Source: Thermoanaerobaculia bacterium (lineage in GTDB: Bacteria; Acidobacteriota; Thermoanaerobaculia; UBA5066). Taken from it: a stretch of DNA of 64,000 nt. Location: the NCBI GenBank assembly GCA_022071945.1, contig JAJVIN010000006.1:62001-126000 (forward strand), given 5' to 3'. This document shows, in pieces, positions 17,782 to 44,871 of this stretch; position 1 is the first letter of the stretch, and every line of letters begins with the position of its first letter. The position numbers and the translations under genes are program-made. Under the pieces are notes generated by a model. The model had not been told where the DNA came from and searched no databases. It worked only from the letters and a program-made list of their open reading frames with translations.

Positions 17782-17835
17782 GCGCCAACTACGGCTGGCG
17801 CGCCAACTACGGCTGGCGCGCCAACTGCGGCTGGC
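17782..17835. repeat. Three tandem 18-bp palindromic repeats at the hypF 3' end
   Basis: Three units of GCGCCAACTACGGCTGGC (third unit with TGC for TAC) occur head to tail at 17782, 17800 and 17818, followed by a partial unit to about 17840. Each junction forms an inverted repeat GGCGCGCCA/TGGCGCGCC. The hypF stop codon (17807-17809 on the minus strand) lies inside the second unit, so the repeats supply the last residues of HypF (ARQPQLARQP). Confidence 0.9.
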
Positions 17836-20174: not shown

Positions 20175-20919
20175 CTATCCGGAGGCGGCAAGGCCCTCCA
20201 GGAACTTCTTCTCCAGGACGGCGCACAGGGGGCGGGGAACCGGGCCGCCGGCGGCCAGACAGATCGTCAGGCACGTCTCATCCGGCAGGCGGACCTCGAA
20301 CCCCGTGATCACGACCTCGTCGAAGGCGATGATCACGTTCGGGGGAACCGGCCCGGCGGGACGGCCCCTTTCTCCAGCCAGCAGCGGCCACCCTGCTGCC
20401 GATGAGGGCGTAGAACGCCTCCTCGCCCAAAAGCTCGCCCTTCTCCGCGTGAACGACATGTCCCCAATTAGACCAGACGGCGCCCGTCTCGCCTCCCCGG
20501 TCGATCCGAAGCGCCCCCCAGGAAGCAGAGAGCGCATAGATCTGGACGAGATCGGGGAACATGGGAAGCGAGATTGAGCCGGAGAAACCCGTCCGGGCCG
20601 CCAGAATCCTGTCGACCACCTCGAGGAGAGCCGAGAACGAGAACGGCCTTTCGAGGTACTCGACTGAGCCACGCTTCATGACTTCGTGCCTCACCTCGGA
20701 GGTCCCGAAGGCGGCGATGATGATGACCGGGAGCGTGGGAACGCCCCGTCTCGCCGCGATCAGGAGCTCGATCCCGCGTGTGGGTCCAGCTGGCTTTCCG
20801 GGGCAGCGAACGGAAGGGCTGGTTCGGCGGAAAACACCCAGCGCGGAGCGAGCGCTTTCAACGCGAATCTTCAGTCCTCCAGCCAGTGAAGCTTCGCATT
20901 CCTTCTTGGCCGAACCCAT
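20175..20919 (-). pseudogene. Chimeric remnant of receiver/DUF4388 regulator and Roadblock-like gene
   Basis: An ATG at 20919 with a good GGGAGG site opens a frame whose first ~48 residues have no match here. From about 20782 it becomes nearly identical to the middle of the regulator at 25957-26973 (GIELLIAARR, SEVRHEVMKRGSVEYLE, ALRIDRGGETGA). The first half of the receiver, including the phosphoacceptor Asp segment, is missing. A one-base deletion near 20390, relative to the intact copy, shifts the frame. At 20347 the sequence switches to the last ~56 codons of the Roadblock-like gene 23715-24326. It is therefore a recombinant, probably non-functional copy of two genes from the neighbouring signalling cluster. 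Confidence 0.8.
20176..20347. repeat. 172-bp direct repeat, left copy
   Basis: This copy is identical to 23716-23887 except for five substitutions and no gaps; the spacing between copies is exactly 3540 bp. It corresponds to the 3' end of the Roadblock-like gene. Together the two copies bracket the glycosyltransferase islet. Confidence 0.95.
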
Positions 20920-20943
20920 GCTAACCTCCCGCTGGCGAGCGAG

Positions 20944-22767
20944 ATGCAGATCCAGCGGCCGCAGCCACACGACTTCCCCTACCCCTCTCCCTTCCTGCGA
21001 CGACCCGCCCTAGCTCTCACATTCATGCTCTTCGCTATTACGGTCCTCTTCGCGGCCCGCTTCGCCAAGGAAATGCTCACAAGCTCCCTTTGGAACGACG
21101 AGTTGTACTCTATCCTCAACTATTCCGGGCGCGGTCCGATCACGACGCTTACGGAGTACATACCCAACAACCACATCCTCTACAACCTCTTGAACTCGAT
21201 AGGTCCCGACCCCACTTCCTTCAGCCCAGCCCGAGTACGCGCCATGGCGACGGCTGCAATAGCAGTGCTGGGGCTTCTTCTCCTAGTTCATTTCGGCGTC
21301 AAAAGACAGCTTCCCGTTGGCGTCCTGTCCCTGCAGCCACTTATCGGGAACTACGAGTTCCTTGACCTCTCACTTCAAGGTCGAGGCTACGGCGTCGCCG
21401 CCTTACTAGCCGCCGCAGCTGGACTGCTTCTCATCAGCCTTCACAGGACACCAACCACAGGCCGATTGGTTTTCTTTGCATCCCTGAATGTTCTTGGCAT
21501 TCTGGCTCTGCCGACATTCGCCTTTTGGAGCATTCCCCTCTTTATCATCCTCTTCCTGAGACATCGGCACTCTCACATAGTCATCGCAGCCCTTGGCGCA
21601 GCTGCCGCGACCATTCTGCTTCACATCGGCGTACTCCCCCGCATCCTCGACAATGCTATGGGAGGATATGGGGAGGAATGGGGACGACAGTTTTCGCGAA
21701 TCACGGCTGTATATGAATCCCTTAGGATCTACTTCGTAGGCTCCCCAGAGAGGGCCTCTGACGCTCTCCTGACGTGGCTAGGACTTCTCCTCGTCCTATT
21801 GGTGGCTTACGTTGTCAGGACAACTCCTGACGCCCCCGAACTCTCGCTGCTTCTTTCCGTGTTCGTCGCTTTCGGAATCTGTCTCACGTTGGAGACACCA
21901 CTCGTCCGCACAACCTCCTTTCTCGCGCCGCCGCTCTCGATCAGTGTTTGGTCGGCCGTGGCGCGATTCATAGACACAAGGCCGTCCGTAGCTCCTAAAG
22001 GGCGAGAGTTCATACTTTACGGCCTCCTCCTTCTTTTCCTCGTCCGCGACACCAGAAAGCTATTCATTTTCCACTTCGTACCGATCGAGTCCTGGAAGAC
22101 GACCGCGGAGCTGGTCTCTTCCGTCTTTCCGGAGAATGTCTCTGTGGGGGCAACCGTTGCGCCGGACTTTCTGTCTGGATACTTGCCTTCTCGAAAAGTC
22201 AGACTATGGGAACCAAAGTCGAGCGGCTTGCCGGAGGACTGCCGTACTGTCGTTGCGGACACAGCCATGATGCCGACAGACAACCGTATCCGCCTTTCCA
22301 CGGAAGAGAAAAGGAGCACGGCGGCGGTCTTCGTTCCGCAGCGACGCGAGCGACATCAGATCGTCTACTTTCGACCGTGTACCGAAAGTATCGCAGAGGT
22401 CTCAGCTTCCGGTATTGGCTCGCCGTCAGCTGTCCGGGATTTGGACTTCCAATCATGCGGCACCATAGGCGCCGGTGGGGCCGCGATTAGGGTGACATTC
22501 GGTGGCGATGTGCGTGTCCGCAGTATCCTTGTCTCTGTGGCCAGACCGGCCACAGACATACCACGTTTTGAGGCGCGTGTAGGCACAGGGTCCGCGTTCG
22601 ATGAGCCATGCGCCGCCCCCGTCGTCTCACTAGTGGATGGGATCGTCATCATCACCACCAAGGATTGCCGATTGAAGTCCGCCGACATCACTTTCAGTCC
22701 GGAGTGGAGCGGGGCGAAGGTCTGCGAAGCATGGGCCTATCCTTCAAGATTTCCTGTCCACCGCTGA
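20944..22767 (+). CDS. Multi-membrane-spanning glycosyltransferase, GT-C/ArnT-PMT-like
   Basis: The 607-residue product has about ten hydrophobic segments up to residue ~375 and a soluble C-terminal region. The first extracytoplasmic loop carries WNDELYS, matching the Asp-Glu pair typical of GT-C (PMT/ArnT-like) lipid-linked sugar transferases. It probably moves a sugar from a polyprenyl carrier onto a surface polymer or protein; donor and acceptor are unknown. Codon use is looser and less GC-rich than in all neighbours, suggesting recent transfer. It lies inside the islet bounded by 172-bp direct repeats and has no operon partner apart from the damaged gene just downstream. Confidence 0.7.
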   Translation: MQIQRPQPHDFPYPSPFLRRPALALTFMLFAITVLFAARFAKEMLTSSLWNDELYSILNYSGRGPITTLTEYIPNNHILYNLLNSIGPDPTSFSPARVRAMATAAIAVLGLLLLVHFGVKRQLPVGVLSLQPLIGNYEFLDLSLQGRGYGVAALLAAAAGLLLISLHRTPTTGRLVFFASLNVLGILALPTFAFWSIPLFIILFLRHRHSHIVIAALGAAAATILLHIGVLPRILDNAMGGYGEEWGRQFSRITAVYESLRIYFVGSPERASDALLTWLGLLLVLLVAYVVRTTPDAPELSLLLSVFVAFGICLTLETPLVRTTSFLAPPLSISVWSAVARFIDTRPSVAPKGREFILYGLLLLFLVRDTRKLFIFHFVPIESWKTTAELVSSVFPENVSVGATVAPDFLSGYLPSRKVRLWEPKSSGLPEDCRTVVADTAMMPTDNRIRLSTEEKRSTAAVFVPQRRERHQIVYFRPCTESIAEVSASGIGSPSAVRDLDFQSCGTIGAGGAAIRVTFGGDVRVRSILVSVARPATDIPRFEARVGTGSAFDEPCAAPVVSLVDGIVIITTKDCRLKSADITFSPEWSGAKVCEAWAYPSRFPVHR

Positions 22768-22805
22768 AACCCGCGACGAATCGTGGCACCCGAAAGGTAT
22801 CGAGT

Positions 22806-23542
22806 ATGCAGAGTTGCACCGCCCCAGACGTGATCAATCAGCACGCGGCTATCAATGCCACGAGGATATACACACCCAGGAGGAGCCCGTTCACGGTGAT
22901 CGCGGCCGTGGCTCTGCTCGGATTCCCGAGCTCATCTGACGCGCAGGGGCTCCCTAACATTGCCCTGAACGCGGTCGCCACTGCATCCGCAACCCTTTCC
23001 GGCTCCTCGCCGGCACGGCTATCGGACTGCGCAGGTTCACTGAGGTCGTCCCGCCCCCTACACCTTTGGCGGACTCCCCGGGCTCCAGAAGGGACATCGT
23101 CAAGCTGATCCTGGCGGCTCGGGGGGAGTGCCCCACCGACCAGCCTCCAGTACCGGAACCTCCGTTTGCCGATGTTCCGCGGACGGACCGAGATTCATGG
23201 TGGATTGACAAGGCATTCGCGATGGGACTCACTCAGGGCTGCCAGGCCCCACCGTTGAGGCTTTTCTGTCCTGAGGACCCCCTACGTCGAGATCAGAGCG
23301 CCGCGTTTCTCACCCGCGGCATGTATCTTCCGAACCCTGTCCCTACGGCACCGAATCCTGGTTGGACTGATGTCGATCCGAACAGTCCTTACCTTGGATT
23401 CATCAACCGGCTCTGGGCGGATGGCATTACGGTCGGGTGTTCGGCATCTCCCCTGATGTACTGCCCAGAACAGCTCACGTTTCGGTCCCAGGTGAAGGCT
23501 TTCGTGAGTCGCTACTGGCCTTCATATTCCGTCCTACCGTGA
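22806..23542 (+). pseudogene. Frameshifted exported protein with S-layer-homology-like repeats
   Basis: An ATG at 22806 begins a signal-peptide-like sequence (RRSPFTVIAAVALLGFP, cleavage near SDAQG). That frame loses coding character and ends at 23108. A second frame, open at least from about 22985 and carrying a TTG at 23066, continues to 23542. It holds two SLH-like units: FADVPRTDRDSWWIDKAFAMG..GCQ and WTDVDPNSPYLGFINRLWADGI..GCS, each followed by a CPE-L-R-Q type segment. The simplest reading is one secreted SLH-like protein split by a frameshift. The alternative is a short intact gene from 23066. It shares the looser composition of the islet. Confidence 0.45.
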
Positions 23543-23714
23543 CCTGGAGGCGCGAGCCGCTCTCATCCGCCACATCCAGCCCATCTCTGTTGTGGCGAAG
23601 ACCGGCGCTATCTGGATGCTCTCGAGAGTACTCAACCAAGAAGGGAGGCCTGGCCCCGGCTCGAAGGATTCACGCGCATCACAACGATCTTTCGGAGAAA
23701 GGGCCTAACCCAAC
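23543..23714. other. Intergenic region at right end of islet
   Basis: This 172-bp stretch separates the convergent SLH-like remnant and the Roadblock-like gene. I see no gene, and no strong hairpin or terminator. Confidence 0.4.
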
Positions 23715-24326
23715 TTATCCGGAGGCGGCAAGGCCCTCCAGGAACCTCTTCTCCAGGACGGCGCACAGGGGGCGGGGAACCGGGCTGCCGGCGGCCAGGC
23801 AGATCGTCAGGCACGTCTCATCCGGCAGACGGACCTCGAACCCCGTGATCACGACCTCATCGAAGGCGATGATCACGTTCGGGGGAATTCCGCCTGGCTG
23901 CGCCATGGGACGCGCGTAGTCCAGCGACGCCATCAAGCGGGCGCCGATCGCCTCGACATCCGGCAGGGGAATCTCCCCGACCGACGCGATGAGGAGGCCG
24001 TGAGGATCCATCAGGATCGCCGCCGAGGCCCCCGAGGCCTGTCGTGCCCAGCTCAGAAGCGGCTCCCACCGGCGCCCGCCCTCGCCGAGCCTTTCCGGAA
24101 GCGGTGGCAGGGCGGCAGGGACCGAGGGAGCTTGCGCCGGGGCAACGGGGGCGGGAAGAGGCCCTGCAGAAGCGGAGACCGGCGGAGCGGGAGAGGCCGG
24201 CTGTCCGCGAAACGAGACGAATGCCGGACGGCGAACGGGAGCCGCCGGAGAGGCGCCCGTCAACCGGTGGGAGAGCTCCCTGGCTCTCTCCAGACTAGAG
24301 GAGCTGCCGCTCGGGTCGCTCTTCAA
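23715..24326 (-). CDS. Roadblock/LC7-like protein with Pro/Ala-rich N-terminus
   Basis: The 203-residue product starts at a TTG (24326) preceded by AGGAGG at good spacing and overlaps the end of parA by 32 bp. About 85 residues of Pro/Ala-rich, probably disordered sequence lead into a compact domain beginning WEPLLSWARQASGASAAIL and HGLLIASVGE, which resembles Roadblock/LC7 folds (MglB-like). The C-terminal part (VIIAFDEVVITGFEVRLPD, ending FLEGLAASG) is duplicated at 20176-20347. It is the last gene of a five-gene minus-strand cluster of receiver regulator, Roadblock proteins and ParA. A regulatory partner role for a small GTPase or for ParA is inference. Confidence 0.65.
   Translation of the reverse strand: MKSDPSGSSSSLERARELSHRLTGASPAAPVRRPAFVSFRGQPASPAPPVSASAGPLPAPVAPAQAPSVPAALPPLPERLGEGGRRWEPLLSWARQASGASAAILMDPHGLLIASVGEIPLPDVEAIGARLMASLDYARPMAQPGGIPPNVIIAFDEVVITGFEVRLPDETCLTICLAAGSPVPRPLCAVLEKRFLEGLAASG
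23716..23887. repeat. 172-bp direct repeat, right copy (within intact gene)
   Basis: This copy matches 20176-20347 with five mismatches. It is the genuine 3' end of the Roadblock-like gene 23715-24326, so it is likely the parental one. Confidence 0.95.
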
Positions 24327-25107
24327 CCTTCGCCTCCTGGGGCAAGAGCCGCTGCATCTGAAGCTCGAGCTCGGCGGCCAGAAGCTCGAACCTGCGGGAT
24401 TCGGGCGTGACCGCCCCCGAGAGGAAGCTCACCGGAAGTCCCTTCCGGCTCGCCTCCGCGTAGATATCGGCGCGCGGAATCGCGGATTCGAGGACTCCCC
24501 CGAACCCCCAGATTTCGCCCAGGACCGAGAGGGCGGCCGGCTTGGACTTCTCCACCATCGCAGGCAGGATGCCGAGCAACTGCAGGCGGGGGTTCTCGTT
24601 CGTCTTCACGTGCTCGATGACACGCAGGATCTGCGAGACCGAGCGCAGGGAGAGGCTCTCGGTCTGGAAGGGAACGAGAACGAAGTCGGAAACCGCCAGG
24701 GCCGCCCGCGTGACGAGGCCGACGCCGGAGGGCGTGTCGAGGAGGACGAGGTCGTGGTCCGTCTCCAGGCGGTCGAGGGTCCCGGAAAGGACGCCGGGAC
24801 CGAAGAGAGCCTGCTCGTAGTCACAGACCTCGGCGGGATCGAGCCTCCCGCGCGGGAGAAGCGAAAGGCCCGGAAGGCGCGTCTTGAGGATCGCCTCCTC
24901 GGGAGTCACGGTGCCCGTCATCAGGTCGGCAAGCCCGGCGAGCTCATCGTCTTCCCGGGCCAGTGAGAGGCCGATTCCTCCCTGTGGGTCGAGATCGGCG
25001 AGAAGGACACGCCGTCCTCGTTCCGCCAGCGCCACCGCCAGGTTGAGCGCGACAGTGGTCTTGCCAGTTCCGCCCTTCTGGCTCGCAATCGTCAAACGTC
25101 GTGGCAT
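24295..25107 (-). CDS. ParA/MinD-family ATPase
   Basis: The 270-residue product has the deviant Walker A SQKGGTGKTTVALNLA at the N-terminus, DLDPQGG (A') and a Walker B-like DLVLLDTPSGVG. A GAGGAGG Shine-Dalgarno precedes the ATG. Family members dimerise with ATP on membranes or DNA and position plasmids, chromosomes or protein complexes. There is no ParB or parS-like sequence nearby. The gene is embedded between two Roadblock-like genes, so a role in positioning a signalling or motility complex is more likely than DNA partition; that is inference. Confidence 0.88.
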   Translation of the reverse strand: MPRRLTIASQKGGTGKTTVALNLAVALAERGRRVLLADLDPQGGIGLSLAREDDELAGLADLMTGTVTPEEAILKTRLPGLSLLPRGRLDPAEVCDYEQALFGPGVLSGTLDRLETDHDLVLLDTPSGVGLVTRAALAVSDFVLVPFQTESLSLRSVSQILRVIEHVKTNENPRLQLLGILPAMVEKSKPAALSVLGEIWGFGGVLESAIPRADIYAEASRKGLPVSFLSGAVTPESRRFELLAAELELQMQRLLPQEAKVEERPERQLL

Positions 25108-25148
25108 CTTCTGCCTCCTCTGCTCCGGAAACAGGTTCTCTACGAGGC

Positions 25149-25517
25149 TCAGACGAGGCGGGCGATTTCCTGAGCGGCCCTCTTCATGTCGAGGAGGACC
25201 ATCCCGAGCTTCGCCTGCGACCCCGCGATGGTCTCGAGAACGGCCTCGGGTCCGGCCTGCATCAGGATGATGTAGCCGGAGCTCCCCCTCACGTAGACCT
25301 GCTCGAGCGTCCCGCGCTGCAGCTCGGCGGAGGTGCGCTCTCCGAGGGACAAGAGGGCCGCGGCCATCGCGGACACCCGGTCCTCGTCCGTCCCCTGGGG
25401 CAGGACCGAGGCCAGGATGAGGCCGTCGACGCTCACGACGGCAGCCCCCTCGACCTCGGGAGTGTTGGAGCGGAAGTTCCTGAGAACCTGCTGCATCTGT
25501 TCAGCCCGGCTTGCCAT
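25149..25517 (-). CDS. Roadblock/LC7 domain protein, MglB-like
   Basis: The 122-residue product runs from the ATG at 25517, which has GGAGG just upstream; a longer frame to 25592 lacks support. The whole protein is one Roadblock/LC7 domain: FRSNTPEVEGAAVVSVDGL, then ILASVLPQGTDEDRVSAMAAAL, LSLGERTSAEL and YVRGSSGYIIL. This is the typical form of MglB-type GTPase activators. No MglA-like Ras GTPase gene lies in the window. It sits between another Roadblock-like gene and parA on the same strand. Confidence 0.88.
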   Translation of the reverse strand: MASRAEQMQQVLRNFRSNTPEVEGAAVVSVDGLILASVLPQGTDEDRVSAMAAALLSLGERTSAELQRGTLEQVYVRGSSGYIILMQAGPEAVLETIAGSQAKLGMVLLDMKRAAQEIARLV

Positions 25518-25537
25518 TGTCAAACCTCCATCAATCT

Positions 25538-25960
25538 CTAGACGGTGGATTCCAGCCGCCGCTGCGCGGAGCGAATTTCCTTCCAGCCCCATCCCGGAGC
25601 GACGCTGGCCTCCGTCACCAGCAAGAAGAGCCGCCGGCCATCGCCGGAGACCTTCGCATACAGACCGCGGGATGCCGTCACGAGCCGAAGCTCCTGGAAG
25701 GGCTCCGACCCCGGAATCCCACCCTGATCCAGGAGCGCCGCGCGCACCCTGGCCACATCCGGGTTCCTGAGAAGGGCGAGGACTCCCTTGACGGTCTGAC
25801 TCATTTCCGAAGGGGCGATCTTCTCCCCGTGAAAACCGAGGATTCCTCCGGACTCCGTCTCGGCCACGGCAAAAGCGAGGGCGCCTTCTCCCGAGATCGC
25901 GATGTCCTTGCAGATCGCGTCCAGCTCCGCCCGTCTCGTCGACCCGCTCTCCCCGCTCAC
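25538..25960 (-). CDS. Small Roadblock-like signalling protein
   Basis: The 140-residue product starts at a GTG whose GTGA overlaps the stop of the upstream response regulator, indicating translational coupling. Its pattern (AICKDIAISGEGALAFAVAE, GGILGFHGEKIA, LRLVTASRGLYAKVSG, LFLLVTEASV) has the alternating helix-strand profile of Roadblock/longin domains but is divergent. The close coupling with the receiver/DUF4388 protein suggests they act together. Confidence 0.6.
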   Translation of the reverse strand: MSGESGSTRRAELDAICKDIAISGEGALAFAVAETESGGILGFHGEKIAPSEMSQTVKGVLALLRNPDVARVRAALLDQGGIPGSEPFQELRLVTASRGLYAKVSGDGRRLFLLVTEASVAPGWGWKEIRSAQRRLESTV

Positions 25961-26973
25961 GGCCAGAGACTCCTGACCCCGCTCTCGATCGCGCTGCGGA
26001 ATCTCGTCAGGGACGGACGCGATGAAATGTCATCCGAGGCCACGACCGCCCCGCTCTTCTCATCCCAGATCACGGCCATTCCGTTCACGGTCCCGGAGAG
26101 CTCGAGGACCGCGCGGCCCGTGACGGCCGGTATCTCGCGGGCTTGTGCCGTCACGGCCTTGACGGCCTCCGAGAGGGGGCTCGACCCATCGAGAGGAACG
26201 TCCAGCACCTGGGCTCCGTTCAGGGACTCGCGGAGGAGTCGCGAAATCACCGCCCAGTCTTGAATGGCGGGCTCTGCCGCGGGGACGTCCTTCGCCGCCG
26301 CCTCGTCCAGGCGCCGGCAGCCTTCGATCAAGAGGGTCTGCCAGGCGTCGGTGATGGTCCGGCCCGGCGGGACGGCCCCTTTCTCCAGCCAGAAGCGCCC
26401 GCCTTGCCAGCCGATGAGGGAGTAGAACGCCTCCTCGCCCAGAAGCTCGCCCTTCTCCGCGTGAACGACCTGTCCCCGATCGAACCAGATGGCACCCGTC
26501 TCGCCTCCCCGGTCGATCCGGAGCGCCCCAGAGGAAGCGGAAAGCGCATAGATCTGGACGAGATCGGGCAGCATGGGAAGCGAGATCGAGCCCGAGAAGC
26601 CCGTCCGGGCCGCGAGAATCCTGTCGACCACCTCGAGGAGGGCCGAGAACGAGAAGGGCTTCTCGAGGTACTCGACCGACCCGCGCTTCATGACCTCGTG
26701 CCTCACCTCGGAGGTGCCGAACGCCGTGATGATGATGACCGGGAGCGTGGGAACGACTCTTCGCGCCGCGATCAGGAGCTCGATCCCGTTCATCGCCGGC
26801 ATCTGGACATCCGAGATCAGGACATCGGGCGGAGCCTGCTTGATCCTCTCCAGCGCCTCGATCGGATCCAGGAATCCCTCGAAGGAGATCTCCGGCCGGG
26901 TTCTCGCCATCTGTTTCGAGGTGATCCAGACCAGATCCTCCTCGTCATCGACCATCACGACTCGGGCTGGCAT
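25957..26973 (-). CDS. Response regulator with receiver and DUF4388 (PATAN) domains
   Basis: The 338-residue product starts with a receiver domain (about 1-120) with acidic pocket DDEED, phosphoacceptor Asp55 in LISDVQMP, the T in ITAFG and K in LEKPFS. A DUF4388/PATAN domain follows (about 128-225, SGSISLPMLPDLVQIYALS, GALRIDRGGETGAIWFDRG). The C-terminus (about 240-338) looks like another Roadblock-type domain. There is no DNA-binding domain, so the output is protein-protein. It is the first gene of the cluster and lies 96 bp downstream of the histidine kinase gene, its probable cognate sensor. A damaged recombinant copy is at 20175-20919. Confidence 0.88.
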   Translation of the reverse strand: MPARVVMVDDEEDLVWITSKQMARTRPEISFEGFLDPIEALERIKQAPPDVLISDVQMPAMNGIELLIAARRVVPTLPVIIITAFGTSEVRHEVMKRGSVEYLEKPFSFSALLEVVDRILAARTGFSGSISLPMLPDLVQIYALSASSGALRIDRGGETGAIWFDRGQVVHAEKGELLGEEAFYSLIGWQGGRFWLEKGAVPPGRTITDAWQTLLIEGCRRLDEAAAKDVPAAEPAIQDWAVISRLLRESLNGAQVLDVPLDGSSPLSEAVKAVTAQAREIPAVTGRAVLELSGTVNGMAVIWDEKSGAVVASDDISSRPSLTRFRSAIESGVRSLWP

Positions 26974-36033: not shown

Positions 36034-36897
36034 CTACCAGAGCCTCTCATCCCCCGCATGCCAGTCCCGCGTGACGTCGAGCCAGAAGGCGAGGCCGGCG
36101 AATCGGCCGAACGAGGAGTAGAACTCCTCGACCTCCCGGTCCGAAACGGCGTGCCCGCCGAATCGCAGCTCGGCAACCTTCTTTCGTGACCAGGAATCGA
36201 GGCCGAGGCGGGAGTGCCGGCCGAGAAGACGCATCAACGTGTGGGCGGCATAGGGACCGAATCCGCCGTTCTTCCTTATCTCGGCCTCGATCTCGTCGTC
36301 ATCCCTCCCTGGGTCCTCCCACGAGGCCAGATCGAGGCGGCCAGACGAAATCGCGGAGGCGAACCGGGAAAGATACGGAGCCCGGTACCCGCACTTCACC
36401 TCGGACCTCAGGAGGCTCTCCGGGAGCCTCGCCACTCTCTCTGGACCCGGGAAGGCACCATCGACGCCCGCGACGGCGATCAGGCGCGTCACCATCGTCC
36501 GGGTCAGCTCCCAGGAACAGTTCGTTGTCAAAAGGACCTTGACGGCGTCCTCGAAGAGGTCCGGAGCCCGCAGCATCCTCCCCGCTCCTCTCTCCGCGAT
36601 CCAGCCGAACCCTTCCTCTTCGCGTTCCGCGCAGTCTCGATGAAAGTCCGCGAGCGGCACTCCGAATTGCAGGATCCGAAGCCCGGCACGCTTCAGCTCG
36701 GCACGGGGAAGACCCGTCGAGGAGGCCCAGATCCCGGTCCTGGATGACGTGATTCGCAGGGGCTGACCTCGCCCATCGTGCTCGACCACGGTCTCCAGCA
36801 CCCCACGCTTGCGGTCATAGCGAAACGGTGGAAGGTCGTACCACCCGTGGCTGCGGACGATCAGGTCCAGGTCGCCCTTTCCGCAAAGGACCCTCAT
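36034..36897 (-). CDS. HhH-GPD superfamily DNA glycosylase
   Basis: The 287-residue product has an N-terminal beta region (about 1-95) and a helical HhH-GPD domain (about 100-260). LLTTNCSWELTRTMV, the hairpin NGGFGPYAAH and a downstream catalytic-type Asp in LGLDSW match AlkA/OGG1-like base-excision glycosylases. The damaged base it removes is unknown. Its ATG overlaps by 4 bp (ATGA) the stop of a short PBP remnant, and a decayed copy of its first ~12 codons lies after the real PBP gene at 40281. This indicates an ancestral PBP-glycosylase gene pair now split. Confidence 0.8.
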   Translation of the reverse strand: MRVLCGKGDLDLIVRSHGWYDLPPFRYDRKRGVLETVVEHDGRGQPLRITSSRTGIWASSTGLPRAELKRAGLRILQFGVPLADFHRDCAEREEEGFGWIAERGAGRMLRAPDLFEDAVKVLLTTNCSWELTRTMVTRLIAVAGVDGAFPGPERVARLPESLLRSEVKCGYRAPYLSRFASAISSGRLDLASWEDPGRDDDEIEAEIRKNGGFGPYAAHTLMRLLGRHSRLGLDSWSRKKVAELRFGGHAVSDREVEEFYSSFGRFAGLAFWLDVTRDWHAGDERLW

Positions 36898-36986
36898 GTC
36901 CGCTTAGGCAGGAGCCCGGGGCGAACGGCGGGGTTCACCCGGTACCCGCCATGGGCGTTGACCGCACACACCGCCGCGTTTTCCAT
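36894..36986 (-). pseudogene. Remnant of a class A penicillin-binding protein gene
   Basis: The 30-residue frame MENAAVCAVNAHGGYRVNPA + VRPGLLPKRT matches two separate parts of the PBP at 40281-42659: the transpeptidase-domain segment MEIAASYAVFANGGYRVKP, and the extreme C-terminus VRPGLLPPQT. It is thus an internally deleted copy of that gene's 3' part. Its stop overlaps the glycosylase start. Confidence 0.8.
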
Positions 36987-37103
36987 TGGTCTTGGATTGT
37001 AGCGAGGGGACCGGCATCCATGCCGATTCCATGAGAATCGAGTACGCGGGGTCCCGAGTGTCACATTCTCGGGGCCGCCCGCGCCCGTTCAAGGAGCCGG
37101 GGC
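36987..37103. other. Intergenic region upstream of the PBP remnant
   Basis: The sequence between the remnant and the hybrid kinase stop shows no gene and no clear promoter or terminator. Confidence 0.4.
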
Positions 37104-39530
37104 TCAGACGGCGGCGCGCCGGACTCGCAGCGCGCGCGCTTCGGAGACGACCTGCTCGACATCCTCGACCTCGACGGGCTTGACGAGGCAGCGGTCGCAG
37201 CCCGCGCTTCGAAAGCGCTCCAGTTCGGCGAACTCCTCGTGGGCCGTCAGCCCGGTCACGAACGCGCGCCGGCCGAGAAAGGTTTCCCGCCTGCGCAGCT
37301 CGCGGACCATCTCCGGCCCGTTCATGACCGGCATTTCCATGTCCACGATCACGAGGTCGGGCGGATTCCTCTCGGCCGCGTCGAGGCCGGCGCGCCCGTT
37401 GGCGGCCAGGCTGACGCCGGCACCGAGCGAGACCAGTGTGGCCTGAAGCATCGCGGCAGCGATCGCGTCGTCGTCGACGATGAGGGCCTCCAGCCGCCCG
37501 ATCGCTGGAGCCGCGGTGGCGACGCCGAGCTCCGGAAGGCCGCGCCGGTCCTCGGGACCGGTGTAAGGGACGCTGAGGACCTCGGGCGGCGCCGCGGGCA
37601 GCACGACCTCGAGTGTCGTGCCCTGCTCCTCCGAGGTCGTCATCGCGATCCGCCCTCCCTGGGTGGTGGCCATCAGCCGGGCGGAGTAGGTGCCGAGGCC
37701 GGTACCGCCCCGCTTGCCGCCTGTCGTGAACTTGTCGAAGAACGTGGCTCGGAGCTCCATCGGGACAGCGCCCCGGTTCCTCACCCGCACGGTCACCTCT
37801 GCCGCGTCTGAGCTCACGGCCACCGCGACGGCCTCGCCGTCCGGTGACGCCTCGACCGCGTTCTTCAAGAGGTTCGCGAACATCGAATAGCAGAGCAGCT
37901 CCTCCCCGAGGGCCCAGCAAGGCTCGCACGTCCCGCCATGGGCGTTTACGAGCTCGATGCGCAGGTTCTTCGACTGCGCGTGTCCCTCCAGATCGCCGGC
38001 GACGTGACGCAGCAGGTTCACGAGCTCCACCGGGCGCGCATTCAGGTGATAGGTGCCCCGCTCCATCTTCAGCATGTCGACCGAGAGGTTCACGAGGTCC
38101 ATGACCCGGTAGCACGAGCGCTCGACGAGGCGCATGAGCTCCACCTGCCTCACGCTGAGGCCGGGAGTGCGACGCACCTGTTTCATGAGTGCGATGGTGT
38201 TGGCGAGCGGCGTCCGCAGGTCGTGGCGGGAAACGCGTTCGACCTCCTCTTGCAGCCGGATGTTCTCGGCCAGAACCGCGTTTCTGTCCGCCAGCTCCTC
38301 GTTCGCCCGCCGCAAGCGCCGCGCGTGGGCCAGCTTCCTGGCGACCGTGTAGGCGGCGAGCGCCAGCAGGCAGAGGCTCAGCACGAGGACGCGGGTCCGC
38401 AGCGTGTTTTCACGCAGGAGCGCGCGGTTCTCCTCCTCCTTGCGTTCGGTGTCGAACTGCACGCGCAGCCGGGACGCATGCTCCTGCTTGCGGCGTTCCC
38501 CCAGGCGGCGCTCCGCGTCGAGTTGCGCGCTGCGCGCCTCGAACGCCATGCGCCAGTCACCCAGGGCGGCCGACGCCTCGGCCCTTTCTCCCTCGATCTT
38601 CAGCAGGAAGCGGTCGTCCGAATTGGCAAGGTAGTGGGCGCGCGCGGCGTCCAGTTCGCGGAGCGCCTCGAGAGGACGCCCGAGTTGACGGAGGGCCACG
38701 CCGCGCGACAGGCGCGTTGCGGCGGCCATGTTCGCGTCCCCCGCCTTCTCGAACGCCTTGAGCGCCGAGAACAGGGGAACGAGGGCCTCGCGGGCGCGAC
38801 CCAGTTTGGTGAGCACGATGGCCACCGAACGCTCGCAGTAGGCGATCTGGACGGCGTCGCCCCGCTGCCGCTCCATCTCGAGCGCCTTCTGCAGCTCGGG
38901 CAGAGCCCCCTGCGGGTCGCCCTTGGTGTCGAGCGTCGACCCTATGTTGAAGTGGTCGGTGGCCACGTCTCCGGCCAGGCCGGCTTTCTCGTTCTCGGCG
39001 AGCAGCAGCCGGTAGTACTCCAGGGCCTTGTCGTACTCTCCGACGTTGGCGTCGGCGTAGACGTTGGCGATGGCGCCGAGCGCACGGTGCTTCTTGCCGT
39101 CGCGCCGGAGTGTCAGGTCCAGCCGGTAGGCGCGCTGCAGATCGGCCAAGGCAGCGTCGAATCGGCCCCGTGAGTGGTGAAGCTCGCCGCGCAGCATGAG
39201 GGCATCGGCGGTGAGGCGGTCGTCGTGGAGCCGCTCGGCCTCGCTGACCGCGAACTCGTACTCGGCCTCGGCGGTCGCCAGACGTCCCGCGCCTTCGTTC
39301 CCGTAGCCGCGGCAGAGGCGCAGCTCGGCAACAGCCGCGGCGTTGCCCGCTCGCTGAGCCGCCGGGATCGCCGCCTCGGCGACGCGGATCGCCGCCTCAG
39401 GATCGGACGGAGCGGTGTCCCAGCAGCGCTTGATGTCATTCTCGAAGCTGGATGGGGCACCGGCCAGGGCCGGAATGAGCGCCAGGAGCAGTGCGCCCAT
39501 CGGTCCCTTTACAGCGCCTCCGCTCGACAT
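37104..39530 (-). CDS. TPR-containing hybrid sensor histidine kinase
   Basis: The product is about 808 residues from the ATG at 39530; an ATG at 39500 with AAGGGA upstream is an alternative. A hydrophobic signal segment is followed by a periplasmic TPR array (about 25-330), a coiled coil, one membrane helix (about 345-365) and a second coiled coil. The kinase core has SRHDLRTPLANT (phosphoacceptor His), NLLKNAVEAS and GGTGLGTYSARL. A C-terminal receiver domain (LEALIVDDD, Asp in LVIVDMEMPVMNG, K in CLVKPVEV) makes it a hybrid kinase. It sits between the two duplicated PBP/glycosylase fragments, so it probably arrived as an insertion. No partner regulator is adjacent except the broken FHA gene. 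Confidence 0.9.
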   Translation of the reverse strand: MSSGGAVKGPMGALLLALIPALAGAPSSFENDIKRCWDTAPSDPEAAIRVAEAAIPAAQRAGNAAAVAELRLCRGYGNEGAGRLATAEAEYEFAVSEAERLHDDRLTADALMLRGELHHSRGRFDAALADLQRAYRLDLTLRRDGKKHRALGAIANVYADANVGEYDKALEYYRLLLAENEKAGLAGDVATDHFNIGSTLDTKGDPQGALPELQKALEMERQRGDAVQIAYCERSVAIVLTKLGRAREALVPLFSALKAFEKAGDANMAAATRLSRGVALRQLGRPLEALRELDAARAHYLANSDDRFLLKIEGERAEASAALGDWRMAFEARSAQLDAERRLGERRKQEHASRLRVQFDTERKEEENRALLRENTLRTRVLVLSLCLLALAAYTVARKLAHARRLRRANEELADRNAVLAENIRLQEEVERVSRHDLRTPLANTIALMKQVRRTPGLSVRQVELMRLVERSCYRVMDLVNLSVDMLKMERGTYHLNARPVELVNLLRHVAGDLEGHAQSKNLRIELVNAHGGTCEPCWALGEELLCYSMFANLLKNAVEASPDGEAVAVAVSSDAAEVTVRVRNRGAVPMELRATFFDKFTTGGKRGGTGLGTYSARLMATTQGGRIAMTTSEEQGTTLEVVLPAAPPEVLSVPYTGPEDRRGLPELGVATAAPAIGRLEALIVDDDAIAAAMLQATLVSLGAGVSLAANGRAGLDAAERNPPDLVIVDMEMPVMNGPEMVRELRRRETFLGRRAFVTGLTAHEEFAELERFRSAGCDRCLVKPVEVEDVEQVVSEARALRVRRAAV

Positions 39531-39667
39531 GGCGGAAGCGTAGCGATCACGACCGGCTCCGTAAAGACGGGGGGGCAGGTCCCAGCGGACATCAGGGCTC
39601 GCGGCGCCCCACGCGACCTCGAAACGAGGCTCTTCATCGCCCGGCTTGCAAGGTGTCGCTCCCGCCG

Positions 39668-40102
39668 CTACTCGTACGTCGCGGTTGCGCCCGGGCAGGC
39701 GGCGCCCGGGCCGCGATAGACAAGGTGCACCGCCCCCACGCGGAACTCGTCTCCGTCGGCGAGTGGGAGGAGACCCTTCACCGCCGTCTCGCCGCGCCAC
39801 GTCCCGTTCTTGCTCCCGAGGTCCTCGATCGCGGCGCGCTCTTCCGTCACGACGATTCGAGCGTGCTCGCGCGAGACGGAGGGGTGACAGATCCAGATCC
39901 CCGCGGGAGGCTCCCTTCCGATGACGTTCGGTCCCTCGCCCAGCAGCATCTCGGTCCCGCTCCAGACGAGACGGTGCCGGTGCGAGGAAGGAGTCTTCTC
40001 CTCGACCTCGTGGACCGGGCCCTGAAAGGCGTAACCGAACCCGAAGACCGTCCGGGGGACAGACCTTCTGGGCCTTCTATTCCTGGCCCTGGAAGAGGCC
40101 CC
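39668..40102 (-). pseudogene. 5'-truncated winged-helix/FHA transcription regulator
   Basis: An FHA domain is complete (MLLGEGPNVIGREP, HPSVSREHARIVV, DLGSKNGTWRGE) from an ATG at 39949. The same frame is open upstream to 40102 without any start codon. It reads the last part of an OmpR-type winged helix, SVPRTVFGFGYAFQGP, immediately before. Homologous regulators carry a whole winged helix before the FHA domain, so the 5' half is missing. It is replaced by a palindromic repeat region from about 40105. An FHA-only protein from 39949 might still be made. Confidence 0.7.
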
Positions 40103-40110
40103 TCACCCTA

Positions 40111-40214
40111 CCCTCTCCCCGCTGCGGCGGGGCGAGGGAACGAGCGCCTGATCGGGGACCGCCTGATCGGGGACAGCCACTCTTCTCACTTGCGGCGGGG
40201 CGAGGGAACGAGCG
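40111..40214. repeat. Cluster of direct and inverted repeats
   Basis: TGCGGCGGGGCGAGGGAACG plus AGCG (24 bp) occurs exactly twice, at 40123-40146 and 40191-40214. Between them GCCTGATCGGGGAC occurs twice in tandem (40146-40159, 40161-40174). The first 24-bp copy is also half of an imperfect palindrome (40111-40138). The cluster abuts the truncated regulator gene. Confidence 0.85.
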
Positions 40215-40280
40215 TGGGACAGACATTCTTCGCCTGCTTCGCCTCTCAAGACGCCAGATCCCCATGGCCGCACGGGGCCC
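40215..40280. other. Decayed start of the glycosylase gene after the PBP gene
   Basis: Minus-strand sequence right after the PBP stop reads ATG-AGG-GCC-CCG-TGC-GGC-CAT-GGG-GAT-CTG (encoding MRAPCGHGDL). This aligns with the glycosylase start MRVLCGKGDL at 36897 and then stops. The plus-strand segments 40264-40310 and 36877-36924 agree at most positions. Confidence 0.7.
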
Positions 40281-42659
40281 TCATGTCTGCGGCGGCAGGA
40301 GTCCGGGGCGAACGTCCTCGCGTGGTTCGGGAGCGGGCCTTGCCCCATGGACCGGGCAGATCGCTGCCGGCTCGGTCCCCGCGAGATAGGTTTCATTCAG
40401 CTTCGACGGGCAGTTCTCCGAGGCCAGGAAGCCAGTCGTGGGGTCGACCGTTTCCTGAACGATTCCGGGCGGCCTCACGAAGCTCACGTTGAACTCGTGG
40501 GATGGCCGGCGCTTGGCGAACTCTGCAAAGATCGGCACGGCCGCCATCGAGCCCGATAGGCCGAGCCCGCGGTTGTCGTCGAATCCGACCCAGACGGCCA
40601 CGAGGAGCCTCGGCGAGAACCCGATGAACCAGGCGTCCCGGCCGTCGTTCGTCGTGCCCGTCTTGCCAGCGAAAGTGCCGGTTGCTCCGAGACGCCGGGC
40701 CGACGCGCCGGTCCCTCTCTCCACCGCCCCTCGCAAGATCTCGGTCACGAGGGCCGCCGAGGCCGCCTCGGCCGCGCGGTGCATCGGTTCCGCCTTCGGC
40801 CCGTCTCCCGCCAGCCGGTCCCCTCCGGGCTTGATCGCTCCAAGCAGGGCGGTGGGCTTCACCCGGTACCCGCCATTGGCGAAGACCGCATACGACGCCG
40901 CGATTTCCATGGGGCTGATCTCGAACGATCCGAGGGCGAGAGACGGATACGCCTTCATCGGCGAGCTGATTCCGGCTTCCTTCGCGAGCTCCACGATCCT
41001 CGGCAAGAGGTTGTCGCCCGAGCTCGTTTCCGAAAGCGCCACCCGGACCGTCGGGATGTTGATCGACTGTTCGAGTGTCTGCCTGACAGAGATCGGGCCG
41101 CGGAACTCGCCGTCATAGTTCTTCGGCGTCCAGATCTGCTGCTGACCGCCTCCGAACTCGATCGAGATGGGAGAGTCCTGGAGCACTGTCGACGGCGTCA
41201 TGTGCTGCCGGACCTCCGGGTCGGAGAAGGCGGCCAGAAAGACGAAGGGTTTGAAGAGGGAACCCGGCTGCCTCCTGGCCTGAACGACCCGGTTGAACTG
41301 ACTCTCCGAGTAGTCGCGCCCCCCGACGAGGGCCCGGATGGCCCCCGTGGCCGGATCGAGCGCGATCAGCGCTCCCTGCAAGGGCTCCTGGCCCGGCTTT
41401 GTCCGAAGCCTCTTGAACTTCGTCTCGAGCTGCTCGAGTCCCTTTTGCAAGGCGGCCTCGGCGGCCGTCTGCATGTCGGGATCGAGAGTCGTGAAGATCG
41501 AGACCCCTTCCTCCGAGATCTTCTCCCGGGACTGTCCGGCCTGGGTCAGGACGAAGTCGACGAAGTGCGACGCCTGGATTCCAGTGGCGGGGCGCGAGAT
41601 CGCCGTGAGCGGAGCAGCGGCGGCGTTCTCGTACTCCTCCTTCGTGATCTTCTCCAACTCGAGCATGCCCTTGAGGACGAAGGCCCGCCGAGTCCGGGCG
41701 CTCTCCTCCGAGCGGAAGGGTGAGAACCGGCCGGGAGAGGCGATCAGCCCGGCCAGCAACGCCGACTCGGGAAGGTTGAGCGCGGAGGCGGGCTTTCCGA
41801 AGTAGTACTTCGAGGCCTCCTCGACACCGGTGACCGAGATGGAGCCACGCTGGCCGAGGTAGATCTCGTTCAGGTAGGCCTCGAGGATCTGCTCCTTCTC
41901 GTACCTCACTTCCAGGATGACGGCGAGGAGAGCCTCGACCGCCTTGCGCCTGAAGGTCCGCTCATGCGTCAGAAAGAGGTTCTTGACGAGCTGCTGGGTC
42001 AGGGTCGATCCGCCCTGCACGGCGGATCCCCGCCTGAGATTCCGCAGAGCCGCCCCGAGGATCCGCCTGAGCGAGATCCCGCTGTGGGAGTAGAAGGACC
42101 GGTCTTCCGTCGTGATGATGGCGTCGACGAGCCTGGGTGAAACCTGATCGAGCCTGACGGGCGTCCGGTCCTCCATCTTCTGGTCGAAGACAGAGCCCAC
42201 GACCTCGGGCTCGAAGGTGGCGAGGGAAAGGGGGACCTTGTCGACGGCGCGCCTGAGCGTGCGGATCTTGCTCCCCTCGAACTCCATCTCGATGGGGATT
42301 CCCCCCGTCCTTCCGAACGCTGTTTCCCTGTCCTTCAGCCAGACCGCGATCCAATTGCCCGAGACCGAGTACCGGCCTGGCTCGATCTTCGTCCCCGGCT
42401 CCAACGCCGCGTAGCGGAGCCTCTGCAGACGCCTCAGGACATCCTCCGGACTCCACCCGTCGCCCTGCCTGACGACCCACACGTCCGAGTAGATCCGCGC
42501 CGGCAGGTTCCACTTGCGGCCGTCCATCCGCTTGCGAACCAGCCGGTCGTAGTAAGAAACCACCGCTCCCATCGCGACGATTCCGACGGCGAAGAAGACG
42601 CCGGCAAAGAGCAGGAGTCCCCTCGGCAGCCGCCGCTTCTTTCTCGCCATTCGCGCCAT
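40281..42659 (-). CDS. Class A penicillin-binding protein, PBP1b-like
   Basis: The product is about 792 residues from the ATG at 42659, which lies 4 bp after the upstream stop. A basic cytoplasmic N-terminus and one membrane helix (about 10-35) precede a UB2H-like region (about 55-140). A GT51 glycosyltransferase follows, with catalytic TEDRSFYSHSG, GGSTLTQQLVKN and EAYLNEIYLG. A transpeptidase domain with SLFKPF (Ser-x-x-Lys), QSINIP (SxN) and AGKTGTTND (KTG) completes it. It polymerises and crosslinks peptidoglycan at the inner membrane. A truncated copy of its 3' part is at 36894-36986. Confidence 0.95.
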   Translation of the reverse strand: MARMARKKRRLPRGLLLFAGVFFAVGIVAMGAVVSYYDRLVRKRMDGRKWNLPARIYSDVWVVRQGDGWSPEDVLRRLQRLRYAALEPGTKIEPGRYSVSGNWIAVWLKDRETAFGRTGGIPIEMEFEGSKIRTLRRAVDKVPLSLATFEPEVVGSVFDQKMEDRTPVRLDQVSPRLVDAIITTEDRSFYSHSGISLRRILGAALRNLRRGSAVQGGSTLTQQLVKNLFLTHERTFRRKAVEALLAVILEVRYEKEQILEAYLNEIYLGQRGSISVTGVEEASKYYFGKPASALNLPESALLAGLIASPGRFSPFRSEESARTRRAFVLKGMLELEKITKEEYENAAAAPLTAISRPATGIQASHFVDFVLTQAGQSREKISEEGVSIFTTLDPDMQTAAEAALQKGLEQLETKFKRLRTKPGQEPLQGALIALDPATGAIRALVGGRDYSESQFNRVVQARRQPGSLFKPFVFLAAFSDPEVRQHMTPSTVLQDSPISIEFGGGQQQIWTPKNYDGEFRGPISVRQTLEQSINIPTVRVALSETSSGDNLLPRIVELAKEAGISSPMKAYPSLALGSFEISPMEIAASYAVFANGGYRVKPTALLGAIKPGGDRLAGDGPKAEPMHRAAEAASAALVTEILRGAVERGTGASARRLGATGTFAGKTGTTNDGRDAWFIGFSPRLLVAVWVGFDDNRGLGLSGSMAAVPIFAEFAKRRPSHEFNVSFVRPPGIVQETVDPTTGFLASENCPSKLNETYLAGTEPAAICPVHGARPAPEPREDVRPGLLPPQT

Positions 42660-42663
42660 TCGA

Positions 42664-44871
42664 TCAGTACCAGTACTTCGTCTTTGCGGCCCAGTCACTC
42701 TTCGGGTACTTCTTCTTCAGGAGCTGAAACGCCGCCTTGGAGAGCCGAGACGTCGATTCGGCGGTACACCCGTATCGGGTCGCGCGAACCGCCAGATGAA
42801 GGGCCTCGGCCCCGCGGTCACCCGGGTCGAGCTTGTTCACGGCATCGATCACCGTCTGGGCGAGAAAGTCGGGGGCCGTCCCCTGTCCCTTCAGTCGTGC
42901 TGACTCCTCCCGGCCCTTCGCCAGCTCGACCGCCGGAACGAACATCCACGCTCCGGTGCTCTTCGGCGCCTCCGGCGAGACGGGCCCCCCGGCGCACCAC
43001 CAGTTGTCGCGGAAGCTGTCGATCTCCGCGAGAGCTTCTCGGCGCGGCAGACCAAACTCGACGTAGGGCCGCAGCCCCGGCTGGCGCAGGATCGCGAGGG
43101 CAGCGGCGAAGACCCTCCCGTCCCGCGACTTCGCAGCGGCGTGTTCTTCGAGGCCCGCGAGGAGCTCTGCTGGTCCATCCGAGAGGGCCTTGCGGAACTC
43201 GGCCGCCGCCTTCACGTCGTCGAGAAGCGCGGCCCGAACCCAGCCCGCCAGACTGATGCGCTTTCTCAAACCTTCGGGGATGTCCTTCGACGTCGAAGCC
43301 TCGACCCACCGCTCGAGGGGGAGCACACCGTTGAAGAGGGCGGCCCCGTCCTCGTCCAGTAGCGGCGCGATCGCTCGCTTCGGAGCATCAGGTGCTTCCT
43401 CGGAAGGAAGCTCGCGGCCATCTTCGTTGTAGCTGAACGTGGAGGGCAGGCGTCCCACGAATCGCAGGGCGTCCGTGAGGTTCGCCGAGAGTTGCAGCCT
43501 TGCCCTCTCCACCTCGTTTCGAGCGGATGGCGGGAGCCGGCTTCCGCCCACAAGGAGGGCGTCGAGCCGTTCCCGGGCCTCCCTGGGCTTCCCGGCGCCG
43601 GCTTCCAGCCGGGCCAGATGAAACGCCACCATGACGAATGCCGCCGAGCTGGGCGAGACCTTCTTCCCCGCCTCGATCAGGGCCGAGGCCTCGGGAGCGG
43701 CCGGCGTGGCCTTGGAGAGCCCCGCCACCAGCCAGGGGAGGGACTTGGTCTGGTTCCACCTGGTGAACGCCCGGGCGCGTGCCTCATCGGTCTCCGCCTG
43801 GAAGGTCAGGATCCAGTCCGTCAGCTCGTCCTTCCGCAAGGACTCCGGGACCGGCGACGGAAGCGTGTCGAGGGCGTAGGTGTAGTCGTCGAGGGAAGAC
43901 ATCAGGGCGGCCCCCGCTCCCTTCGCGAGCACTTCTTTCGACTTCTCGGCCGCGGCCGAGGCCGGATCCGACCGCAGGAGCGTGAAGGCGAGGAGCCGGC
44001 GGGAGGGCTCGTGGATCTTCTTTTTCGCGGGATCGGCCAGGATCGTCTCGAGCTCCTTTCGGGCTTTGCCCATCAGGTCTCTGTCGACACTCCCGCTCGT
44101 CACCGTGGCGCGGCGGATGATGGCCCGAACGGCGAGGTATGGAGCGAGGGAGCTCCAAGGAGACGCGGGATCGCGAGCAATCTCGCGAAAGGCGGTTTCG
44201 GCCTCCGCGTAGCTCCCCGAGTAAAAGAGGGCCGAGGCGATCTGGTAGGCGCGATCGGCCCGGGCCAGAGCCGGGGCGGAGGGAGGAAGAGGTTGCGGGA
44301 CCGTCCTCGGCCCCTCTCCTCCGCAGTTCGAGAAAACGGCGTCCTGGGCGGTGACCCAGTCTTTCAACACGGCGCTGGCCGTGCCGAGCACCTTCAGCCT
44401 CTCGTTCGCCGTCTGAGCAGCAGAGAGGAACGAGGAGGCGTTGCAGTTGAGGAACTCGAAGTAGAAGTCCGGGCCCGTCATCGTCTTGTGCCCGGAGATG
44501 TTCGGTCTGGCGCCCTTGCCCAGGATCGCGTCCCGAGCGTCGAACCACTTCTCCGAGGGAGCCGTCGTCACTTCCGAGGGGCTCGCGATTCCGAGGCGCT
44601 TGTCCCACAGGGCGATGACGGCAGCCTGTTCAGCCGCGTCGAGTCCGATCCCCGACAGATGGCGATACGCCACGGCCAGGTACGAGCGCGCGTACGAGGG
44701 CTTCGGGATCCCGAGCTTGCCCGAGGCGAAGTCCGAGAGCGGGAAATCGGGATGTGCCTGGTGAACGAAGATCGCGCTCTCGAAGAAGGGCCCGCAGGCC
44801 AGGGTCCGGAGCGGAATCGAAAACACGAGAATTCCCAGAAGGCCGAGGAGAAGTCTCGACGTCTTTTTCAT
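42664..44871 (-). CDS. Large exported protein of unknown function (CGP family)
   Basis: The product is about 735 residues from the ATG at 44871; a GTG at 44880 is an alternative. A signal peptide ends near RTLACGPFFE, where Cys may be a lipidation site or a disulfide partner. The rest is rich in Ala/Leu helices of TPR-like character (for example YQIASALFYSGSYAEAETAF) with no catalytic motif. It resembles in layout the protein encoded at 56547-58547, which also starts its mature part with a CGP motif. It is 4 bp upstream of the PBP gene and cotranscribed, so an envelope role is plausible but unproven. Confidence 0.7.
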   Translation of the reverse strand: MKKTSRLLLGLLGILVFSIPLRTLACGPFFESAIFVHQAHPDFPLSDFASGKLGIPKPSYARSYLAVAYRHLSGIGLDAAEQAAVIALWDKRLGIASPSEVTTAPSEKWFDARDAILGKGARPNISGHKTMTGPDFYFEFLNCNASSFLSAAQTANERLKVLGTASAVLKDWVTAQDAVFSNCGGEGPRTVPQPLPPSAPALARADRAYQIASALFYSGSYAEAETAFREIARDPASPWSSLAPYLAVRAIIRRATVTSGSVDRDLMGKARKELETILADPAKKKIHEPSRRLLAFTLLRSDPASAAAEKSKEVLAKGAGAALMSSLDDYTYALDTLPSPVPESLRKDELTDWILTFQAETDEARARAFTRWNQTKSLPWLVAGLSKATPAAPEASALIEAGKKVSPSSAAFVMVAFHLARLEAGAGKPREARERLDALLVGGSRLPPSARNEVERARLQLSANLTDALRFVGRLPSTFSYNEDGRELPSEEAPDAPKRAIAPLLDEDGAALFNGVLPLERWVEASTSKDIPEGLRKRISLAGWVRAALLDDVKAAAEFRKALSDGPAELLAGLEEHAAAKSRDGRVFAAALAILRQPGLRPYVEFGLPRREALAEIDSFRDNWWCAGGPVSPEAPKSTGAWMFVPAVELAKGREESARLKGQGTAPDFLAQTVIDAVNKLDPGDRGAEALHLAVRATRYGCTAESTSRLSKAAFQLLKKKYPKSDWAAKTKYWY

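Follow-up and report, generated by a model that had tools for sequence, protein, structure and literature searches.

Organisation of the locus

Within the window, by which we mean the whole stretch of 64,000 nucleotides analysed here, a gene for a HhH-GPD-type DNA glycosylase, a DNA-repair enzyme, and a gene for a class A PBP, a cell-wall synthase, lie on either side of an insert of about 3.3 kb (Table 1). The assignment of the PBP is supported by the Pfam domains Transgly (1.5e-61) and Transpeptidase (4.3e-26) as well as by an NCBIfam PBP_1a_fam match above the cut-off, while the match of the glycosylase to Pfam PF00730 (E 6e-4) remains below the gathering score. A previous inspection of the letters of this DNA, hereafter called the sequence-only reading, had placed a TPR hybrid kinase and a broken FHA regulator between the two junctions, and both genes are recovered by Pfam matches. 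No sigma-70-like promoter was found between 36.0 and 42.8 kb.

Table 1. Positions of genes, homology blocks and further features at the locus (window coordinates; strand "." where none applies)
Feature	Position	Strand	Basis
Complete gene of the HhH-GPD-type DNA glycosylase (287 aa), downstream member of the ancestral pair	36034..36897	-	
Block A, left boundary copy (PBP tail and glycosylase start)	36867-36927 = 40254-40314	-	blastn 48/61, 79%, E 3e-10, ungapped
PBP remnant, 30-codon open frame	36894..36986	-	translation and junction sequence
Block B, left copy of internal PBP segment	36926-36992 = 40850-40916	-	blastn 56/67, 84%, E 3e-16, ungapped
Inserted segment, outer limits of sequence non-homologous to PBP/glycosylase	36993..40253	.	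edges of homology blocks
Hybrid histidine kinase, TPR - transmembrane - HisKA/HATPase - receiver	37104..39530	-	Pfam TPR_12, HATPase_c, Response_reg
FHA regulator without wHTH half	39668..40054 (ORF 39668-39949; homologous coding to 40054)	-	Pfam FHA E 1.3e-15
Cluster of short dispersed repeats, ~200 bp, from broken FHA end to glycosylase stub	40055..40253	.	
Glycosylase 5' stub, ~10 codons (MRAPCGHGDL)	40254..40283	-	blastn and translation
Full class A PBP gene (PBP1A/1B family), upstream partner of the ancestral pair	40281..42698	-	

Two copies of the PBP-glycosylase boundary

When the left junction is compared by blastn with positions 39.9-42.7 kb, two collinear plus/plus blocks result, designated A and B in Table 1. 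Their scores of 52.7 and 72.5 bits contrast with a best score of 32.8 bits among 500 shuffled versions of this junction in which the dinucleotides were preserved. From one block to the other the offset changes from 3387 to 3924, corresponding to an in-frame deletion of 537 bp (179 codons) in the left copy of the PBP gene. About 126 positions of the left copy are thus matched, and in the intact copy they span 663 bp. What is left of the PBP in the left copy is a frame which, on the minus strand, reads MENAAVCAVNAHGGYRVNPAVRPGLLPKRT up to a TGA stop, the latter overlapping the ATG start codon of the glycosylase as ATGA. An alternative alignment of the entire remnant to residues 776-802 of the PBP, which would dispense with the deletion, was discarded because it turned out to be weaker (E 0.004, the DNA block having 3e-16). 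The right copy consists of the whole PBP gene followed by the glycosylase stub, beyond which the sequence is unrelated.

The left junction hence has the composition given by the sequence-only reading, namely a full glycosylase gene preceded by an internally deleted PBP remnant of 30 codons. For the right junction the full PBP holds as well, while the decayed glycosylase stub comprises about 10 codons instead of the 12 originally assigned to it. Likewise, the notion of an insertion between duplicated boundaries stands with its edges corrected to 36993 and 40253. As the source genome is a 6.17-Mb draft of 69 contigs, one might think of an assembly artefact or, failing that, of a chance resemblance. 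We regard either as scarcely credible, since the E values of both blocks and the 500 shuffles, none of which comes near, speak against chance similarity, the copies differ by 16-21%, unlike an assembly duplicate, and the site is located well inside a 169-kb contig.

The gene pair in related genomes

We compared the locus with 13 relatives from the same family, all of them belonging to other genera; in 12 of these a contig spans the boundary. In all 12 the glycosylase gene directly follows that of the class A PBP with nothing in between and no kinase, which is the uninterrupted pair that the sequence-only reading had suggested looking for, and the insert is absent from the corresponding site. 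The PBPs of these genomes are about 60-65% identical to that of the window. The glycosylases following them share 53-64% identity with their counterpart in 11 of the 12, the twelfth genome providing only the start of the glycosylase before its contig ends. Stop and start codon overlap by four nucleotides as ATGA or GTGA in eight of the 12 genomes and as TGATG in a further one. In three genomes of a sister family the glycosylase is present, yet that PBP is not adjacent to it. Because the adjacency is uninterrupted in every boundary-spanning genome of the family, the pair is, by this comparison, ancestral for the family and the arrangement in the window derived, with the empty site being known only from genomes at about 60% protein identity.

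Age and decay of the remnant

Within the 67 nucleotides of block B the remnant agrees with the PBP gene of its own genome at 56 positions and with those of the same-family relatives at 37-45, whereas the genome's own PBP gene agrees with the relatives at 44-51. As the remnant matches its own PBP at 56 of 67 positions and any relative at 45 at most, the comparison assigns the duplication of the boundary to this lineage, after its split from the other genera of the family. In addition, the PBP tail "VRPGLLP" is found in the left and the right copy and is absent in the relatives. Together with the closeness of the remnant to its own PBP, this common tail bears out the derivation of both junctions from one ancestral boundary, as already put forward from the letters of the sequence. 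It also weighs against the idea that two ancient or foreign PBP-glycosylase pairs once lay nearby and each lost one gene. Although the 16-21% difference between the boundary copies might be taken to favour such an origin, we consider it very improbable: the remnant is far closer to its own PBP than to that of any relative, where descent from a separate pair would predict a remnant standing no nearer to the resident PBP than the relatives do, the tail which the copies have in common is peculiar to this genome, and the genome harbours just one glycosylase match and lacks another close PBP of the same type.

Since the own PBP gene retains 44-51 of the 67 positions in comparison to the relatives and the remnant only 37-45, most of the differences between the copies are to be attributed to the remnant. 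The latter has lost residues which are conserved in the relatives, PMEIAA having become PMENAA and FANGG having become NAHGG. The differences are distributed over codon positions 1/2/3 as 4/4/3 in block B and as 3/7/3 in block A, where the codon phases are only indicative as this block partly extends past the PBP stop, and in neither block is there an excess at the third position. Such a pattern is expected once protein constraint is lost and, by this measure, the remnant is decayed. The same decay blurs the outer limits of the duplication.

The inserted genes

All motifs expected of the hybrid kinase are in place (histidine box, N box, G box, receiver aspartate and lysine). The protein is apparently intact and, judging from its domains, most likely represents an ordinary membrane sensor which autophosphorylates and transfers the phosphate to its own receiver. 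A full-length counterpart was found neither among 30 relatives nor, subsequently, among 297 genomes of the phylum. The sequence-only reading had suggested looking for the kinase at another locus in relatives; only halves of it were found, in separate proteins. Its TPR-membrane half shares 44% identity with a TPR-GGDEF protein from a genome of the same class, and its kinase-receiver half 50% with another hybrid kinase, encoded on contig C1 of its own genome. The C1 paralogue was rejected as a counterpart, as only the core is common to both proteins and as its front part is a receiver domain where the kinase of the insert has TPRs. A wider scan for relatives of the kinase gave matches of 42-43% which are confined to the core, the best of them in Ramlibacter. 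Because the two halves match separate proteins and a full-length counterpart is missing from the genomes searched, the kinase looks like a recombined sensor, i.e. a domain chimera, and these half-matches do not point to a donor of the insert.

Only from "RTVFGFGYAF" (40054) onwards is the FHA regulator homologous to the wHTH-FHA proteins which relatives possess in intact form. None of the FHA homologues in the relatives is adjacent to such a kinase.

The adjoining repeat cluster is composed of CTGTCCC motifs and a CCTCGCCCCGCCGC/CCCTCACCCTACC palindromic unit. One 46-bp unit of the cluster recurs about two dozen times at dispersed places elsewhere in the genome; the G+C-rich palindrome concerned lies at 40098-40146 (CCCTCACCCTACCCTCTCCCCGC.. 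CCTCGCCCCGC). An owner element for the palindromic unit was not identified, and the 200-bp cluster folds no better than shuffled sequences (z -0.99). The cluster may have arrived separately from the rest of the insert. Being short, palindromic and rich in G+C, the repeats at the broken FHA end resemble those of the REP/RAYT type. The genome contains ten matches to transposases of the Y1_Tnp family, but a dense CTGTCCC cluster is present beside only one of the seven copies examined. At that place (contig C2, 39000-43500) ten close CTGTCCC motifs adjoin a Y1_Tnp-family transposase with a 326-aa frame, of which the genome has several copies; such a neighbourhood is suggestive of a REP-like array associated with this transposase.

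Origin of the arrangement

The arrangement is probably the outcome of a lineage-specific insertion accompanied by a long direct target duplication, brought about through a single crossover and followed by trimming of the remnant. In an ancestor that had already split from the other genera of the family, DNA carrying the hybrid kinase and a partial FHA regulator would have entered the boundary between the PBP and glycosylase genes, and a direct duplication of this boundary of at least 663 bp would have been made together with the insertion. Both genes would thereby have remained whole, the intact PBP gene keeping a glycosylase stub and the intact glycosylase gene a piece of the PBP end. Later, the spare PBP piece would have undergone the in-frame loss of 537 bp and further decay, ending as a frame of 30 codons whose stop still overlaps the start codon of the glycosylase. 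Such a layout would most simply arise by insertion-duplication, in which a circular or broken molecule bearing a copy of the boundary recombines with the chromosome through a single crossover. Stop and start codon of the two genes normally overlap; going by geometry alone, the PBP remnant may therefore have been kept as a means of supplying the glycosylase with ribosomes that come from the new operon upstream.

The same end layout would be reached if the whole pair had been tandemly duplicated by unequal exchange, the inner copies had been lost and the kinase and FHA genes had been inserted into, or had replaced, the middle. The in-frame deletion in the left copy indeed demonstrates that redundant DNA at this place gets deleted. 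This course of events, the main alternative, nevertheless appears less likely to us, as it needs at least three events, as no further PBP or glycosylase sequence was found in the insert apart from the two blocks and the stub, and as the combination of insert and duplication is repeated at the islet at 20-24 kb (see below), which favours linked events. Insertion of a transposon is not supported, since the target duplication is far longer than those which transposons make and since the kinase and FHA genes are the only genes recognised in the insert.

Relation to known systems

In Campbell-type integration by a single crossover, a 3'-truncated copy of the downstream gene comes to lie beside the intact upstream gene while the reverse is found on the other side. 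The locus exhibits this two-sided stub layout. In contrast to such integration, however, neither an integrase nor a plasmid or vector backbone nor a vector origin is recognisable in the insert, although these could have been lost.

With respect to its product, the proposed event corresponds to a class of rearrangement known from H. pylori as "insertion with long target duplication" (Nobusato et al. 2000, Gene 259:99; as referred to in PMC1643837 and PMC3031569). According to PMC1643837, PMC3874152 and PMC3031569, the published H. pylori cases mostly concern restriction-modification genes and were seen between closely related strains, and the target duplications are described in PMC3874152 as being of the order of 100 bp and of variable length. 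The locus described here shares with them a gene block at a site which is uninterrupted in relatives (the 12 same-family genomes), target copies in direct, identical orientation on both sides (the two plus/plus blocks), and a corresponding size of these copies, with about 126 matched positions and a span of 663 bp. It differs from the published cases in its cargo, which consists of a hybrid kinase together with a broken FHA regulator, and in the copies being old, decayed and recognised by comparison with other genera instead of close strains. We therefore regard the locus as a clear scar left by a rearrangement of a known kind and as a well-supported new example of it, not as a new system. It preserves a clean record of a regulatory gene wedged between two overlapping genes, neither of which was broken because the boundary was copied at the same time.

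A second duplication-flanked islet

A low-G+C islet at about 20777-23715 is likewise enclosed by direct duplications, 20176-20347 corresponding to 23716-23887 (97%) and 20348-20776 to 26359-26788 (90%). The duplicated sequence is a response-regulator/roadblock segment, and the whole region extends over 20176-26788. The left copy, which has suffered an internal deletion of 2.5 kb, adjoins the downstream gene (HypF) and retains the 3'-terminal part of the upstream one. The islet itself carries a 607-aa membrane-protein-like ORF without any Pfam match. At this site the ParA-roadblock pair is conserved in two relatives, in which HypF is not adjacent. The parallel with the PBP-glycosylase locus drawn by the sequence-only reading is thus upheld down to the internal deletion, which affects the left copy only at either site.

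One could go further and suppose a recurrent process of insertion by which gene blocks are placed at tight gene boundaries, with the boundary being copied and the neighbours thereby spared, while the 3' piece retained from the upstream gene is trimmed in frame to a leader ORF that keeps the downstream gene translationally coupled; we deem this generalisation improbable. Two such scars lie 13 kb apart in one window, and for this reason the genome is suited to asking how frequently such arrivals occur outside restriction-modification systems.

Self-comparison of the window yielded two further observations elsewhere. Between 10951 and 12505 there are internal repeats, 65-69% alike and offset by about 144 bp or multiples thereof. 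In addition, an inverted pair of 28-nt repeats (96%) is located at 14704-14731 and 17812-17839, its members being 3.1 kb apart.
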